Of a DNA stretch of 27,146 bases, positions 1,869 to 10,504 are shown in pieces (the stretch's first letter is position 1; each line of letters starts with the position of its first letter). Made by a program: the position numbers and the translations under genes. The stretch is from IMG/VR virus record IMGVR_UViG_3300042503_000737, positions 1-27,146 of that record; one strand, given 5' to 3'. The notes under the pieces are model-generated. The model did not search any database. It had not been told where the DNA came from and worked only from the letters and a program-made list of their open reading frames with translations. The stretch is from a virus.

Positions 1869-3289
1869 ATTCTACTTTTTGCGTTTCTCGCCCTAATCTT
1901 TTCGATGTAGCTTTGTAGTTGTATCACACCTTTATTGAAAACCTGTGCTGGTTGTTCCCACTTAGAGTCAATTAACCGTGCTTTGCAGAGGTAGCGTAAA
2001 GCGTCTGCGGCATGGTCATTCCCAGTTGTGTCCAAATCCTCTGGATGCCTTTTGTCTATTGACATGGATGGTAGAGTTTCTAAGAGGTATGGGCAAGTTG
2101 CAAAAATATAGAGTAACGGAGGTTTAGCGACTAAGCGTTGTCGTATCTGAGACCAACCTGAAATACGGTCGTTATCGGCTCTTCTAAACGGTGGATGTTT
2201 GTACTTAGCAAACACGTTTGAGAACTGCTCATTAATACTAGGACCACCATCACACTTAAAAATGCTTGGGTCAGCTACCGCTATTGGATTTTCTCCCACG
2301 GATGCTGAAGCGATTCTAGTTGCTTGCTCAACGTTATCGACTCCTTTTCCCCACATTTCTCGATAGATAATAAGACTTCCCTTTGGATACGGAACTTCAT
2401 TACCTCCATCATCACGTCCAGAGCTAACAGCACCCCAGACAGCAGCAAAAGGGGAACTATAACCCCAATCAAACCCCAAATAGCGGGGCCAGTGCTTTGG
2501 GACGTTGAAAGGAGCAATAATATGTTTAGAGCTAAACTCTGGAAAGTAACTGCCTTCATGAATCTCAAAATCTCCTTCTAACCATGCTCGCACTAGCTCT
2601 GGACTACCTACCATGTGCAAACGGTTAATGTATTCAGGGTCTCTAGCTAACAGTATTTGATTATCCACCACCCGACTTGGAATATAGATGTAATCAAACT
2701 TAGCGCCGTTAGGTAATAACTTTTCTAAAACCTTCATGCCTCTGGGTGCTGGCCTAATAAACAACTCTTTTAGCCAGCCATGCCCTACACCGCCTGGGTT
2801 AAAGGTAAGAATAACCTGACCACCACCCTTACCTCGGAGTGCTCCAAATAGCTTCCAGATACAGCTTGGGTCAGAGTAGTTTCCCGCCTCTTCTATAGCC
2901 GCATGAGATAACGACTGACCTTGATATTTTTCAGCATCAGCATCATTTGCTAATGGTCTAAACCGCAAGCGTCCACCACCTACAAAAGTGAATTGCTTTT
3001 TCTGGTCCTGCCAATGAGCTTTTAGGGGCAAATAAATCTGCTTAGCTCGCTCAATAAGGTCATCTGCCTGGGGTAATTCTTTACGGAAGAAGATAGCGTT
3101 AAAATCAGCGCCAAGGCGTTCTTGGTCTACTGCCATCTTACCCAATACCCCGTCAGTTTTACCGCCTCCACGGGCACCACCGAAGCCAATAAGGGTAATA
3201 GGGCAGTTTACTAGAGTTTCCTGCGCGCCAGGTTGAGGCGACCATACGATATTCTCATCGGTGCGCTGGTCTGCAAACCAATCACTCAC
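1865..3289 (-). CDS. Terminase large subunit (TerL)
   Basis: Packaging motor ATPase and headful nuclease, which docks on the portal and moves DNA into proheads. Residue numbers are from the GTG at 3289 (474 aa). Walker A GGARGGGKT is at 37-45 and Walker B HAAIEEA near 129-135. The RNase H-like nuclease acidic residues are in GFDWGY (about D274), AVADPS (about D340) and NDHAADALRY (about D425). The frame is open upstream to a TTG at 3334 that has GAGG before it, but that lies inside the conserved C-terminus of the methyltransferase gene. The GTG at 3289 overlaps the methyltransferase TGA as GTGA, with AAGAGGT upstream, so I prefer it. The full ATPase and nuclease sets are present, so it should be functional. 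Confidence 0.95.
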   Translation of the reverse strand: MSDWFADQRTDENIVWSPQPGAQETLVNCPITLIGFGGARGGGKTDGVLGKMAVDQERLGADFNAIFFRKELPQADDLIERAKQIYLPLKAHWQDQKKQFTFVGGGRLRFRPLANDADAEKYQGQSLSHAAIEEAGNYSDPSCIWKLFGALRGKGGGQVILTFNPGGVGHGWLKELFIRPAPRGMKVLEKLLPNGAKFDYIYIPSRVVDNQILLARDPEYINRLHMVGSPELVRAWLEGDFEIHEGSYFPEFSSKHIIAPFNVPKHWPRYLGFDWGYSSPFAAVWGAVSSGRDDGGNEVPYPKGSLIIYREMWGKGVDNVEQATRIASASVGENPIAVADPSIFKCDGGPSINEQFSNVFAKYKHPPFRRADNDRISGWSQIRQRLVAKPPLLYIFATCPYLLETLPSMSIDKRHPEDLDTTGNDHAADALRYLCKARLIDSKWEQPAQVFNKGVIQLQSYIEKIRARNAKSRI

Positions 3290-3927
3290 AGCGGCAATAC
3301 CTCTTGCCGTAAACGCTTGGCAGCTAATTCGCAATACTTTTCCTCAATTTCAATGCCAATTGCTTTCCATTGAAGGTCTTTTGCTGCTCGTAAACTACTT
3401 CCACTTCCTGCAAAAGGGTCAAGCATCGTTCCAATTTTATGACATCTTAAAAATGGATACATTACATTCACAGGTTTTTCTGTTGGATGACGAAGACTAG
3501 AACCATTGATTCGTGGAACTCTTATAATGTCTGTGGGTCGATAAACAAAAAAATGATTGATTCCAGGGTAAAAAGCGCACCCTTCCCACTGTCTACCAAA
3601 CTCATGTTGTAAATCCCCCATAGAATGGCTGCCTTTGTCCCAAACTATAAAACTTTTTGGTTTTGGAAGTTGATACAGATTATCCCATCGACACCATACA
3701 AACATGGCAACTTTGTATTTAATTTCTTCAAATATCCAACTAGGAAACTTGTCATCATTTACAATGCCGCCTAATTGCTCATGTTTTGCCCGCCAATTGC
3801 TGTGATAATCCATTCCATAAGGCGGATCAGTAAGCACCAAATCAACTGGCTCTAAATGAGGTAAAATATCCCTACAATCCCCGTGATATAAAGTAACGTA
3901 ATTATCTTGGTAGTAAGGTTTAATCAC
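3286..3927 (-). CDS. DNA methyltransferase (N6-adenine or N4-cytosine, beta-type motif order)
   Basis: Predicted S-adenosylmethionine-dependent DNA amino-methyltransferase of 213 aa. The catalytic motif DPPY (residues 34-37, in VDLVLTDPPYG) comes before the SAM-binding motif DPFAGSGSS (about 170-178), and HPTEKP lies at about 147-152. That is the beta-class order. It is short and has little room for a target-recognition domain, which is common for phage orphan enzymes. No matching restriction nuclease is visible, so protection of phage DNA or marking of the genome is more likely than a restriction system. The GTG start overlaps the upstream TGA as GTGA. Its place between TerS and TerL is unusual. 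The target sequence cannot be read from the gene. Confidence 0.9.
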   Translation of the reverse strand: MIKPYYQDNYVTLYHGDCRDILPHLEPVDLVLTDPPYGMDYHSNWRAKHEQLGGIVNDDKFPSWIFEEIKYKVAMFVWCRWDNLYQLPKPKSFIVWDKGSHSMGDLQHEFGRQWEGCAFYPGINHFFVYRPTDIIRVPRINGSSLRHPTEKPVNVMYPFLRCHKIGTMLDPFAGSGSSLRAAKDLQWKAIGIEIEEKYCELAAKRLRQEVLPL

Positions 3928-5721: not shown

Positions 5722-5934
5722 ATGAGCAAGAAACTAAAGAGTTTTCCTGTTGGTGTCGTATCTGCTCCAACGGTAGTTATTGATGAAAACGGTCAATATC
5801 GAATCGGTAAAGTAGCAGTAAATGAGAATAACGATCTTTGCGTGAGGTACTACTTGCCGATAAACAGAACAGACCGGAAGCATATTAAGACCTGCAAAGA
5901 TAACTCTACGCCTCAAATAGCTGTTTACGAATAA
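5722..5934 (+). CDS. Small unknown early protein (70 aa)
   Basis: ATG at 5722 follows the 27-aa peptide stop by 4 nt, with GAGGTAGGT as ribosome binding site. The protein is soluble (VVSAPTVVIDENGQYRIGKV, then VRYYLPINRTDRKHIKTC) and likely a small beta-sheet fold. No family is recognised. It is the last gene of the three-gene early cluster and is followed by the structured region at 5939-5978. It converges with the initiator gene on the other strand. Confidence 0.6.
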   Translation: MSKKLKSFPVGVVSAPTVVIDENGQYRIGKVAVNENNDLCVRYYLPINRTDRKHIKTCKDNSTPQIAVYE

Positions 5935-5938
5935 CCCC

Positions 5939-5978
5939 CTACAAGCCCCTAGGTTGCATCCACCTTGTAGCCTAGGGG
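5939..5978. other. Interleaved inverted repeats (possible bidirectional terminator or RNA switch)
   Basis: Four adjoining arms: CTACAAG (5939-5945), CCCCTAGG (5946-5953), a 10-nt loop, CTTGTAG (5964-5970) and CCTAGGGG (5971-5978). Arm 1 pairs with arm 3 and arm 2 with arm 4, so the two stems cross. They can form two alternative hairpins, or a strained pseudoknot, in either transcript. The site lies between convergent genes ending at 5934 (plus) and 6035 (minus), where terminators are expected, but no long U-run follows on either strand. Confidence 0.55.
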
Positions 5979-6034
5979 TATCCCTACCTCTACCCTTTAT
6001 AGTTTAACAGCGACCATCCTAGAGGCTTTTAAGC

Positions 6035-6676
6035 CTATTCAGGTAGGTCACTCCAGTCACCTTTACCATTCCAAGTCTTTTCAGGGTGAACAAGCTTAGC
6101 CTTGCGAAGCGTAGTTCTAGTCTCTGGGTCGAACTTAATTAGAAAAGAGCCATGGTCTTCCCAACCTTGAGGATCATTTCTTAAAGCGTTTAATCGAAGG
6201 CGTAGTTCTTTTTCTTTTTCTGATTCTTTAGCCATAGGTTCCTTTTCTGTTTCCTTAAATACTAAATCACTCTTTAGTAATTTCTTATTAGTAATATCTT
6301 TATTAGTAATCTCTTTATTAGTAGTGAGCACGTCGTACCCCCTCATCTGAGTATCTCTTACCCCCTCACTGAGTATCTTATACCCCCTCTGGGGGTACGA
6401 AATACCCCCTTTGTCGGTCAGTGTTAAGATGCGTTTTCGTTTGTAATGAGAGATTGCAAGGTACCCTTTTCCGACTAAACTTTTTACCGTGTTTTGTACT
6501 GTTTTTTCCGAAAAGCCTGTTTCAGCCGCGATGGTTTTACGAGAAGAAAAACACGGCTTACCTTTCGCTTGCCATTCCGCAACATAAGCAAGCACGATAG
6601 TTTCGTACGGTCCCAGAATCAAAAGTAACGCTTTGTTTACGTTGAAAAACGCATTGAGAGATGGTATCTTTGGCAT
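6035..6676 (-). CDS. Replication initiator-like winged-helix protein containing the origin
   Basis: A 213-aa protein. Residues about 15-90 form a winged helix-turn-helix of the kind seen in phage O-type replication proteins: IVLAYVAEWQAKGKPCFSSR, then KTIAAETGFSEKTVQNTVKS and a LVGKGYLAI wing. Next is a linker encoded by DNA iterons (about residues 88-113) and by AT-rich repeats (TNKEITNKDITNKK). A charged helix (KEPMAKESEKEKELRLRL) and a short conserved-looking C-terminus ending DWSDLPE follow. The architecture parallels lambda O: DNA-binding N-terminus, iterons in the middle of the gene, AT-rich DNA just after, partner-binding C-terminus. The ATG has AAGGAA upstream, and the gene has its own promoter (6771-6743). 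A plain transcription factor is the alternative. Confidence 0.75.
   Translation of the reverse strand: MPKIPSLNAFFNVNKALLLILGPYETIVLAYVAEWQAKGKPCFSSRKTIAAETGFSEKTVQNTVKSLVGKGYLAISHYKRKRILTLTDKGGISYPQRGYKILSEGVRDTQMRGYDVLTTNKEITNKDITNKKLLKSDLVFKETEKEPMAKESEKEKELRLRLNALRNDPQGWEDHGSFLIKFDPETRTTLRKAKLVHPEKTWNGKGDWSDLPE
6271..6329. repeat. AT-rich 15-bp repeats (candidate DNA unwinding element)
   Basis: TTATTAGTA occurs at 6285-6293, 6300-6308 and 6315-6323, exactly 15 bp apart, with a partial copy (TTAGTAAT) starting at 6274. The stretch is very AT-rich and lies next to the iterons on the 3' side of the initiator gene, where lambda has its easily melted region. Because 15 is a multiple of three, it also makes a protein repeat (TNKEITNKDITNK). 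Confidence 0.6.
6336..6410. repeat. Four origin iterons (TACCCCCT, 22-23 bp period)
   Basis: TACCCCCT starts at 6336, 6359, 6381 and 6403, so spacings are 23, 22 and 22 bp, about two helical turns. The two iterons at 6336 and 6359 are both followed by CTGAGTATCT (6347-6356 and 6369-6378). An inverted GGGGGTA at 6391-6397 pairs with the last copy across a 5-nt loop. The units fall in different reading frames of the initiator gene, so DNA selection rather than protein repetition preserves them. Likely the initiator-binding sites of the replication origin. Confidence 0.7.
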
Positions 6677-6691
6677 ATCAGTTCCTTTTTA

Positions 6692-6736
6692 AAGAGCGGG
6701 TTTTACTTTCGACGGTAGCCCGCTCTTGTTTTATTT
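6692..6736 (+). terminator. Stem-loop: plus-strand terminator, also leader hairpin of the initiator mRNA
   Basis: AAGAGCGGG (6692-6700) and CCCGCTCTT (6719-6727) form a perfect 9-bp stem with an 18-nt loop. On the plus strand GTTTTATTT follows, giving a reasonable intrinsic terminator. On the minus strand the same stem lies immediately after the predicted start site (near 6736) and 3-6 nt before the AAAAAGGAA ribosome binding site of the initiator gene. Confidence 0.55.
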
Positions 6737-6742
6737 CCCCTA

Positions 6743-6771
6743 CTTATACCCTCTCACGAAATAACCGTAAA
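6743..6771 (-). promoter_or_regulatory. Sigma70-like promoter of the initiator gene
   Basis: On the minus strand, TTTACG (6771-6766), a 17-bp spacer, then TATAAG (6748-6743), which matches TATAAT at five of six. Transcription would start near 6736, directly at the leader stem-loop, and reach the ATG at 6676 after about 60 nt. Confidence 0.55.
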
Positions 6772-6800
6772 GAAATAATAAAAAATACCGAATCTATTAG

Positions 6801-6829
6801 TTGCTTGCTGTAATCTTTTCTGTCATAGT
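6801..6829 (+). promoter_or_regulatory. Possible early promoter overlapping conserved element copy 2
   Basis: TTGCTT (6801-6806), 17 bp, CATAGT (6824-6829); three and four matches to the sigma70 boxes. The spacer is filled by CTTGCTGTAATCTTTTCTGT (6804-6823), 18 of 20 bases like 5366-5385. The start site would fall near 6836, on the palindromic site at 6831-6854. A weak match, supported by context. Confidence 0.35.
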
Positions 6830-6830
6830 G

Positions 6831-6854
6831 ATGCTGTAAACAGTAAATTGTTTA
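6831..6854 (+). promoter_or_regulatory. Operator-like palindromes upstream of the second early operon
   Basis: ATGCTGTAAACAGT (6831-6844) contains CTGTAAACAG, a near-perfect palindrome. It overlaps TAAACA-N6-TGTTTA (6837-6854). A 13-of-14 match to the first element is found at 8401-8414, ahead of the gene at 8443. The position, at the predicted transcription start, suits a repressor site. Confidence 0.45.
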
Positions 6855-6855
6855 T

Positions 6856-6867
6856 GTAACTAAGGAG
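6856..6867 (+). promoter_or_regulatory. GTAACTAGGAG-type leader, copy 2
   Basis: GTAACTAAGGAG, 18 nt before the ATG at 6874. One base differs from the common form, and one extra base lies between it and the start codon. Confidence 0.55.
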
Positions 6868-6873
6868 ACAAAT

Positions 6874-7179
6874 ATGAAACAAGTAATGTTGAAAGTAGGT
6901 AAAATGCGGAAAGCTGATGAGTGCGTTGTTTATCCAGTTGATTCAACAAATCCAAACAGACGATTTGTTCAAGGGGACCGCCTTGTCATGATTGTGGATA
7001 TAACAACGGGGAAAGCTCGATGTAACTACAAGACCGGATCAACCTATTGCAATAGTTTGCATTTAATTAATCATCCAAACATTGAGATTCACCAATTATC
7101 ACCAGAAGATATACAAGCGATAGTTGATGCTACGCCTAAATCCGGTGATAAAATTGGCGGCAATGTGTTTGTAGCTTAA
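6874..7179 (+). CDS. Unknown early protein (101 aa)
   Basis: First gene of the main plus-strand operon, with the GTAACTAAGGAG leader. It has no recognised family. The N-terminal part alternates charged and hydrophobic residues (KQVMLKVGKMRKADECVVYP) and contains QGDRLVMIVDITTGKARCNY, reminiscent of a small beta-barrel. The C-terminal part holds an acidic helix (SPEDIQAIVDAT). No signal peptide or membrane segment, so it is probably cytoplasmic. Position next to the origin promoter suggests a replication or host-takeover role, but nothing in the sequence shows it. Confidence 0.65.
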   Translation: MKQVMLKVGKMRKADECVVYPVDSTNPNRRFVQGDRLVMIVDITTGKARCNYKTGSTYCNSLHLINHPNIEIHQLSPEDIQAIVDATPKSGDKIGGNVFVA

Positions 7180-8667: not shown

Positions 8668-8858
8668 CCGAAACAGTTGAGTGTGTTGAGTGTGGGTATG
8701 AACAACCCGCCGATGAATACGATGCTAAGGCACCATGCGCAGGCTGTAGGGCACTAGATGACTATCTGGAGAACTACGGGCAGCGCAGGGAGCAACAAAA
8801 CGAACAGAGCTGGTACGAGTTTTGGCAAGAATGTGAACGAATCAAAGGAAAACTATGA
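8664..8858 (+). CDS. Small CxxC zinc-ribbon-like protein (64 aa)
   Basis: VECVECGYEQPADEYDAKAP is followed by CAGC, giving two CxxC pairs that could hold one zinc ion near the N-terminus (about residues 7-28). The rest is a Glu/Gln-rich helix (ENYGQRREQQNEQSWYEFWQ). Both ends are coupled through ATGA overlaps, to the gene before and to Bet after. Being sandwiched with Bet suggests it helps recombination or regulates the recombinase. That is inference from context only. Confidence 0.65.
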   Translation: MTETVECVECGYEQPADEYDAKAPCAGCRALDDYLENYGQRREQQNEQSWYEFWQECERIKGKL

Positions 8859-9658
8859 GTAAAGAACTAACAACAACAAACAATTCAATCGAGATGCTTC
8901 ACGCTCTTCGAAACACAGTAGCGCCAGGACTTACCGAACCTGAGTTTATGCTGTTTGCTGAGATGTGCAGGGTTACAGGACTAAACCCTGCCACCAAAGA
9001 AATCTGGGCTATCAAAGCAGGTGGACGCCTACAGCTAATGACGGGGATCAACGGCTTTCTGCGCATAGCTAACTCGCACCCACAGTTTGACGGTATGGAA
9101 GTGACTTATGAGTGGGACGACAAAACACTTATTAGCAGCACTGTGAAAGTCTATCGCAAAGATAGGCGCTTTCCGTCAGTAGCGACAGCTTACCTAGCTG
9201 AGTACGGCAAGAAGACTCCTATATGGGCTCAAATGCCGACGGTAATGTTAAGTAAGTGTGCAAAGAGTTTAGCTATTCGTGAAGCGTTCATTCAGGAATT
9301 AGGCGGTCTCTACACAGCAGAGGAGATGCCAGCATCATTTGCCGCTCCTACACCTCAACCGATTGAAGGTCATGAGGTAGTAGTGAGCACCAAAACGGGC
9401 GAGGTGCTTGGGTTTAAAAAGGAAGGCGTAGAAGTAGAAGGTTTAAAGCCGATGGATATTGCGGCTGAAATTAAGAAGCGCACACAGCCTACCTACTACG
9501 ATGTGACTAAGTTACCTGAAAAACATCAGGCAGCAGCGGAGCAGTACTTACGGGAATGTGAAGCAAGGGAAGTCAGAGAGCACGTCTGGCGAGCACCGAT
9601 ACGCTTAGAACGCATGACACAGTGCATTGTGGAGGCACCAAGTGAAGACGAAGCATAA
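8855..9658 (+). CDS. bet: Bet/RecT-family single-strand annealing protein
   Basis: A 267-aa homologue of the lambda Beta/RecT recombinases, which coat single-stranded DNA and anneal complementary strands. The conserved core is clear: EFMLFAEMCRVTGLNPATKE, then IWAIKAGGRLQLMTGINGFL and RIANSHPQFDGMEV (about residues 29-82), and TVMLSKCAKSLAIREAFIQE with LGGLYTAEEMP (about 128-159). The C-terminal part is less conserved and charged, as usual for the family. The ATG overlaps the previous stop as ATGA. A 5'-3' exonuclease partner (lambda Exo or RecE type) is not next to it; nuclease-like genes occur further on (10507 and 12607). Confidence 0.92.
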   Translation: MSKELTTTNNSIEMLHALRNTVAPGLTEPEFMLFAEMCRVTGLNPATKEIWAIKAGGRLQLMTGINGFLRIANSHPQFDGMEVTYEWDDKTLISSTVKVYRKDRRFPSVATAYLAEYGKKTPIWAQMPTVMLSKCAKSLAIREAFIQELGGLYTAEEMPASFAAPTPQPIEGHEVVVSTKTGEVLGFKKEGVEVEGLKPMDIAAEIKKRTQPTYYDVTKLPEKHQAAAEQYLRECEAREVREHVWRAPIRLERMTQCIVEAPSEDEA

Positions 9659-10087: not shown

Positions 10088-10504
10088 ATGAAATATGCTT
10101 ATCAGCATAGTACCAGAGGAAATGACCGAGTGTCCAGGGACATGGTGAAACTGGGAACAGTATTGGAAAACGTAACAAACAAACTAAGGAAAAGTATGAA
10201 TAAGCCAGTGAAGGATTTTAAAGAAAAAGGCGTTAGCGTAGCAGTGTGGGAGACCCGTAATGGTGGTTACTCAATCAGCATCAGCAAGCGTTACAAGGAC
10301 AAAGTATCAAACGAGTGGAAGGAGTCTAAATACTGGTTTAAAGAGGACCTGGGTAATCTTATTATTATGCTGCAAGGCGCTCTAGACTTTTGTGGTGGTG
10401 CTGAAGTGCATAAGGCTGAAGGTGTAACAAGCGGTCAAGGGCAGGTAGGCAAGCCAGCGACCTACGAACTATCGCAAAATGAAATAGATGACCTGCCTTT
10501 CTAG
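10088..10504 (+). CDS. Single-stranded DNA-binding protein-like
   Basis: A 138-aa protein ending NEIDDLPF, the acidic tip with terminal Pro-Phe that SSB proteins use to recruit partners. The body (KEKGVSVAVWETRNGGYSIS, then EWKESKYWFKEDLGNLIIML) looks like an OB-fold core with aromatic residues, as in small phage SSBs. The upstream ATG is chosen for its AGGAGG and leader; an internal ATG at 10196 also has AAGGA and would give about 102 residues starting MNKPVKDFKE, so two forms are possible. It works naturally with Bet and the origin. Family assignment rests on the tail and general look. Confidence 0.7.
   Translation: MKYAYQHSTRGNDRVSRDMVKLGTVLENVTNKLRKSMNKPVKDFKEKGVSVAVWETRNGGYSISISKRYKDKVSNEWKESKYWFKEDLGNLIIMLQGALDFCGGAEVHKAEGVTSGQGQVGKPATYELSQNEIDDLPF

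Follow-up and report, generated by a model that had tools for sequence, protein, structure and literature searches.

A probable lambda-type replication origin inside the initiator gene of uncultivated phages, in a cassette that related phages appear to exchange

Why does a phage replication initiator gene carry four closely spaced copies of a short DNA repeat in the middle of its coding sequence? The question was raised by a stretch of viral DNA of 27,146 bases (the window), which, wherever it was sampled, was identical to a portion of an IMG/VR contig of 37,758 bases. One further locus, L150, carries an identical initiator gene. All relatives were found in IMG/VR, and none were found among isolate phages, plasmids and GTDB genomes. 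An earlier note on this DNA had proposed that the repeats are iterons of a lambda-like origin. The analyses described below lead to the conclusion that the locus is very probably a lambda-type replication origin embedded in its own initiator gene:

6035-6676, minus strand: initiator gene, 213 aa, with HTH_36 and PHROG O-like matches and an AlphaFold2 model

Exactly four copies of TACCCCCT are present in the window, at 6336, 6359, 6381 and 6403, and thus with the spacings of 23, 22 and 22 bp that had been reported. The expected number was 0.48, and none of 100 dinucleotide shuffles reached four copies. Two of the copies are trailed by CTGAGTATCT, also as described before. On the coding (minus) strand the array consists of four 19-bp imperfect palindromes of the form GGGGGTA-N5-TACyCnn, with 7-bp arms, a 5-bp spacer and start-to-start distances of 22, 22 and 23 bp:

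6391-6409, minus strand: iteron 1, GGGGGTA TTTCG TACCCCC, a perfect palindrome
6369-6387, minus strand: iteron 2, GGGGGTA TAAGA TACTCAG
6347-6365, minus strand: iteron 3, GGGGGTA AGAGA TACTCAG
6324-6342, minus strand: iteron 4, GGGGGTA CGACG TGCTCAC

In iterons 2-4 the right arm is degenerate (TACTCAG); in iteron 4 it reads TGCTCAC in the window versus TACTCAC in L002, L004 and L008. For the inverted GGGGGTA at 6391-6397 two partners are available, 6381-6387 across a 3-nt gap and 6403-6409 across a 5-nt gap. With the 5-nt gap the register matches that of the other three copies and none of the eight half-sites is left over; with the 3-nt gap one orphan half-site would remain at each end. The 7-bp hairpin of the earlier note does exist as a pairing, but it is better read as the perfect 19-bp palindrome of iteron 1. 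Similarly, the repeats do lie in the region 6336-6410 to which the array had been assigned, but the 19-bp units span 6324-6409, and AT-rich repeats at about 6250-6323 belong to it as well. On the 37.8-kb L001 contig the array is found at about 11.4 kb. The copies occupy frames 2, 0, 1 and 0 of the initiator gene, and 0 of 200 synonymous-codon shuffles produced four identical 7-mers in a row at iteron spacing (maximum 2). Rfam and tRNA scans were empty, and promoter and terminator scans stayed at chance level.

Immediately downstream of the iterons in the gene, three copies of a 14-15-bp AT-rich repeat are found, ACTAATAAAGAGATT and variants, which encode TNKEITNKDITNKK. A 60-nt scan placed the highest AT content of the entire window (82%) here, with the top windows starting at 6250-6264 and adjoining the iterons. 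This stretch is likely to be the unwinding element:

6250-6323, minus strand: likely unwinding element, from the AT scan, with the 14-15-bp repeats ACTAATAAAGAGATT / ACTAATAAAGATATT / ACTAATAAGAAATT

The encoded protein matched HTH_36 in Pfam (E 2.6e-9) and, weakly, DnaD_N, and its best PHROG families were replication initiation and O-like proteins (E about 1e-8). It did not match Pfam Phage_rep_O (PF04492), a family that was matched by one other gene in the 74-member set. No Rep_3 match was found in Pfam and no plasmid match in the protein search, and the iterons are intragenic, which sets the gene apart from the Rep genes of iteron plasmids. Sequence and fold searches against the PDB retrieved just generic winged helices of the HrcA, TubR and MarR type, with no initiator among them and none at E <0.001 by fold. 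The protein is laid out as an N-terminal winged helix (about residues 15-86), a linker (about 98-148), which is the stretch encoding the iterons and the AT-rich repeats, and a small C-terminal domain or tail. The AlphaFold2 model contained a confident winged helix (helices 15-21, 23-37, 46-53 and 57-70; strands 73-78 and 81-86) and a small C-terminal domain after residues 103-148, which comprise most of the iteron-coding and AT-rich stretch. As the pLDDT of these residues was below 50, the iterons and AT repeats are predicted to be encoded in a disordered linker.

As a handle that is independent of the initiator, the RecT gene of the window (8855-9658) was used to collect sister phages. The search yielded 61 loci, 33 with an HTH initiator, and 29 distinct genes were analysed, L008 included. 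An array was present directly after the HTH in 29 of 29 genes, usually followed by AT-rich repeats. The earlier note had named a conserved protein without the repeats as the observation that would speak against it; a conserved HTH lacking the array was seen in 0 of the 29 distinct genes. Where the HTH differed, other repeats took the place of the window-type repeats. GGGGGTA-N5-TACCCCC is shared by the window, L153/L002, L008, L159/L004 and L175/L141, and GGGATCA-AAA-TGATCCC by L188, L169, L200, L156 and L202. The iterons are GGTGCCA in L178, GGGGTCA/GGGGGCA in L173, GCGGCCA-AAA-TGGCCGC in L162 and TGTCAAATTGACA-like in L182. TGTATCA-NNN-TGATACA is found in L154/L009, L163, L165, L152 and L177, GGGGGCAC in L171, L168 and L172, CTGTTCA-AAA-TGAACAG in L181 and L166, TGTCCAAAATGGACA in L158, GTGGCCA-AAG-TGGACAC in L187, L184 and L185, and GGGATCGGAAT in L151. 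The genes fall into 8 HTH classes at 50% identity and 10 at 60%.

Over 406 pairs, the number of shared 6-mers in the iteron region correlated with HTH identity (Spearman 0.53, partial Mantel P 0.001) but not with RecT identity (-0.03). Because HTH and iterons are physically linked, part of this covariation could be due to co-inheritance. The exact 7-mer chain test was failed by L168, L182 and L158, in which the copies can be seen but are degenerate or spaced widely. Palindromic sites numbered 96 overall versus 36.8 expected from synonymous shuffles; gene by gene the excess was significant for some genes only, in a count that by design skips imperfect copies, copies 2-4 of the window among them. 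Palindromy was weak in L171, L168, L172 and L151, which were lowest in this test. Within class B the copies change in concert (GGGATCA, GGTGCCA, GCGGCCA), and the change from GGGATCA to GGTGCCA goes along with a change of the recognition-helix residues from LSEPSTKRY to LSERSTKRH. Among the class B kin, a His after 'KR/RR' pairs with ..CCA (L178, L162), and Tyr or Met mostly with ..TCA. Concerted change of iteron and recognition helix within one HTH class speaks for matched recognition. The iterons thus appear to be matched to their cognate HTH and to be selected as DNA.

A binding site of this kind might also be an operator, through which the HTH protein would repress or tune either the initiator gene itself or the early genes divergent from it, and the origin would be elsewhere. 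The evidence for a binding site would look identical in that case, the fold resembles regulators of the MarR/TubR type, and the early genes at 6874 are oriented divergently to the initiator gene. However, the array begins directly after the winged helix, about 270 bp inside the gene and not at a promoter, it abuts the AT maximum of the window, the top PHROG matches are replication initiators, and the layout, including AT-rich repeats after the iterons in sister classes too, fits lambda ori. An operator is therefore regarded as improbable, and the intragenic origin is the preferred reading. GC skew, which had been suggested as a check, was computed and discarded as evidence on the origin, because it follows gene orientation; it lends no independent support.

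To separate constraint on DNA from constraint on protein, the window was compared with relatives that have the same HTH, L002, L008 and L004-L007, at 86%, 76% and 54% identity, respectively. The array was kept in all of them. Between the window and L004, third positions were identical in 39% of the HTH codons, 86% of the iteron codons and 87% of the AT-repeat codons. At conserved residues the same codon was used in 25 of 52 cases in the HTH, 19 of 20 in the iterons and 12 of 12 in the AT repeats. The contrast between HTH and iterons was present in all six pairs among the window, L002, L008 and L004. In aligned homologues, the comparison that had been suggested, the iterons thus change more slowly than the HTH codons. 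As their third positions are conserved at least as strongly as the amino acids, selection on the protein is not sufficient as an explanation. Conserved synonymous sites, mixed frames and the in-gene cassette exchange described next indicate that selection acts on the DNA of the iterons, in agreement with the earlier proposal of a binding site rather than a protein repeat.

Comparisons at the nucleotide level revealed breakpoints inside the gene, which delimit the following block:

6253-6652, minus strand: exchangeable cassette of HTH, iterons and AT-rich repeats, from blastn breakpoints

In L154 (=L009), the RecT of which is 90% identical, the window is matched at 5936-6252 (86%) and 6653-6882 (89%), and both matches reach into the initiator gene. 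The segment 6253-6652 in between is replaced by another HTH, another AT repeat and TGTATCA iterons at offsets 268, 301, 323 and 346. Likewise, L152 has flanks 95.5-95.8% identical to those of the window and an HTH and iterons of another class. The converse was observed in L161, L175 and L146 (=L008), in which 6274-6616 is retained and the C-terminal part and the surroundings have diverged. The window tail WNGKGDWSDLPE is also found with the HTHs of L154 and L162, the tail KPLS.QTR.WLAEMTGVSLD.LPD is common to L008 and L182, and the tail ..WDE...AMVRRK is combined with about six HTH classes. By these breakpoints, related phages swap the DNA-reading part together with its matching repeats as one cassette, and by the combinations found the tails assort freely with HTH classes. 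As the sites are coded in the putatively disordered linker that directly follows the DNA-reading domain, reader and site would travel together and the whole block would be exchanged.

Such mobility offers another explanation for the conserved repeats, namely recent exchange of the block among lineages by gene conversion instead of selection on DNA. Cassettes clearly move between relatives, and phages that carry RecT recombine readily. Within the shared block 6274-6616, however, the third positions of the HTH half are saturated (39-62% identical) and those of the iteron half are not (86-93%), while one recent transfer would homogenise both; in addition, the class B copies change in concert (GGGATCA, GGTGCCA, GCGGCCA). 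Gene conversion as the cause of the conservation is thus considered very unlikely, and selection on the iteron DNA is retained.

The arrangement was also surveyed beyond the sister phages: IMG/VR was scanned blindly for GGGGGTA triples spaced 20-24 bp. The scan gave at least 120 stretches and was used solely with respect to iteron arrays after an HTH in mixed frames. Among the matches listed, the triples of 40 of 120 stretches lay inside an HTH initiator ORF, 8-63 codons past the HTH, and the copies occupied more than one frame in 33 of 33 distinct genes. For the composition-matched control GGTGGAG the number was 2 of 119, and both were also iteron-array-like. A half-site common to all surveyed phages was considered and rejected, as the G-run flanks a different palindrome in many distant phages; therefore, the arrangement is shared, but not necessarily the site. 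In many distant initiators (the L011-L130 set, e.g., L020, L024, L029 and L089) palindromes that are unrelated in sequence have a GGGGG(G)TA run between them. That the repeats serve the protein as a repetitive linker, with DNA similarity as a by-product, is hardly credible: similar peptides are indeed encoded (RGYKILSE and RGYDVL; these and EGVRDTQM had been given correctly before, QRGYKILSEGVRDTQMRGYDVL), but the copies are spread over more than one frame, both in the window and in each of the 33 distinct GGGGGTA-type genes, third positions are conserved as much as or more than residues, and the region is predicted to be disordered.

For the probable origin the following sequence of events is proposed. 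The N-terminal winged helix, probably as a dimer, would bind the four 19-bp palindromic iterons, which are two helical turns apart. The nucleoprotein array would melt the adjoining 15-bp AT-rich repeats, and host helicase, primase and polymerase would then be recruited, probably via the short C-terminal part of the initiator. The sequences themselves show the iterons and their geometry, the constraint on the DNA, the adjoining AT maximum, the covariation with the HTH and the cassette swaps; that the protein dimerises, binds and melts this DNA and recruits a helicase, and that the site is active as an origin, is inferred by analogy. In ten relatives of 33-38 kb no relatives of DnaB (DnaB_C), DnaC (IstB/DnaC), PolA or lambda P were found, in contigs that may be incomplete and by a search that could miss a divergent loader; this fits the previous description of the phage as replisome-less. 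Therefore, the helicase is probably that of the host, and the loader would be the host's or an unrecognised one.

The C-terminal part of the initiator has features of its own:

6035-6236, minus strand: C-terminal domain with its own in-frame ATG, also found with differently reading HTHs (L154, L162) and as a separate ORF in L141

The ATG lies at about codon 148 and has AAGGAA just upstream; thus, the domain may also be made alone. In L141 (3001-3856) the initiator is split into an HTH protein of 154 aa, which ends in the SSB-tip-like ...DEDDFCPFD, and a separate ORF of 122 aa with the C-terminal domain. As a query on its own, the domain retrieved L001 and L009 only. Unrelated tails (L188, L156, L162, L182, L008 and the window gene) converge on [DE][DE][LIV]P[ED]-like ends, which might act as a peptide that docks to a replication protein of the host.

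Additional features were observed in the vicinity. A 138-aa early protein encoded near RecT (10088-10504, plus strand) had no PHROG or Pfam match; it ends in ...NEIDDLPF, like the acidic-Phe tip of an SSB, and it is likely to be the phage SSB. Between the convergent genes 5722-5934 and 6035-6676 an inverted repeat, CCCCTAGGTTGCA / TGTAGCCTAGGGG, is present at 5946-5978; it is terminator-like, though unflagged by the terminator scan, and L152, L154 and L161 retain matching blocks. At 3286-3927 (minus strand) a short (213 aa) DNA N6/N4 methyltransferase is predicted, with a Pfam match confined to the C-terminal part; the gene overlaps the terminase start.

With these results, the likely origin of an uncultivated phage group can be located from sequence alone. 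They also reveal a natural library of matched reader-site pairs, with 8-10 HTH classes in one group and the same arrangement in many other phages, so that the recognition code of HTH_36 initiators could be tested directly. How a phage without a visible loader recruits the host helicase is a question raised by this locus. More tentatively, the HTH-iteron-AT block of 350-400 bp might be a self-specifying origin cassette, swapped by in-gene recombination. It would combine freely with several C-terminal tails, through which the host helicase is brought in with no loader from the phage; the swaps might be driven by origin incompatibility or origin-directed antagonists, and the pairs of recognition helix and half-site might constitute a readable natural code.

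That the origin of lambda lies within its initiator gene is textbook knowledge. The genes of SPP1 gp38 and of Rep of Tuc2009/TP901-1 also contain the origin, and these are phages the protein families and hosts of which differ from those of the window. Iteron plasmids of the RepA/RepE type resemble the window, with its likely unwinding element, in that they have an AT-rich unwinding element, direct repeats of about 20-22 bp and an initiator with a winged helix; in contrast, their iterons are outside the rep gene and their proteins are of the Rep_3 type. In lambda, dimers of O bind to iterons that lie midway through the O gene, with unwinding of the AT-rich tract, and for Stx phages an origin within the initiator gene has been shown (PMC7466680). 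Both O/ori regions (lambda: NC_001416, 39034-39118) share with the window an N-terminal DNA-binding domain, four mid-gene iterons and an AT-rich tract alongside (PMC7466680). As in the window, the lambda iterons are 7-5-7 palindromes at 20-24 bp (iteron 1: ATCCCTC-AAAAC-GAGGGAA). The window differs in its iteron sequence, its HTH_36-type protein, which stays below Phage_rep_O, and its shorter C-terminal part (about 66 aa); an adjacent P loader was looked for in the ten relatives and not found. The analogy to the lambda origin thus holds in position, geometry and the adjacent AT-rich tract and would extend to function: the locus likely works like lambda ori, with a protein that, as tested, is not a member of Phage_rep_O. 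The exchange of reader and site in one DNA stretch has a parallel in PLE satellites, for which replicon swapping has been proven by experiment. Their RepA and origin resemble the window group in having semi-palindromic iterons and in the joint swapping of DNA-binding domain and origin, while the rest of the initiator stays; the specificity was shown experimentally, and origin-directed attack by the nuclease Odn is thought to select for exchange (PMC8263062). The PLE origin is noncoding and outside repA, whereas that of the window would lie inside the coding sequence right after the reading domain (PMC8263062). Taken together, intragenic origins (lambda, Stx phages) and initiator/origin swapping (PLE) were already known, and the evidence for natural swaps is unusually clear here.
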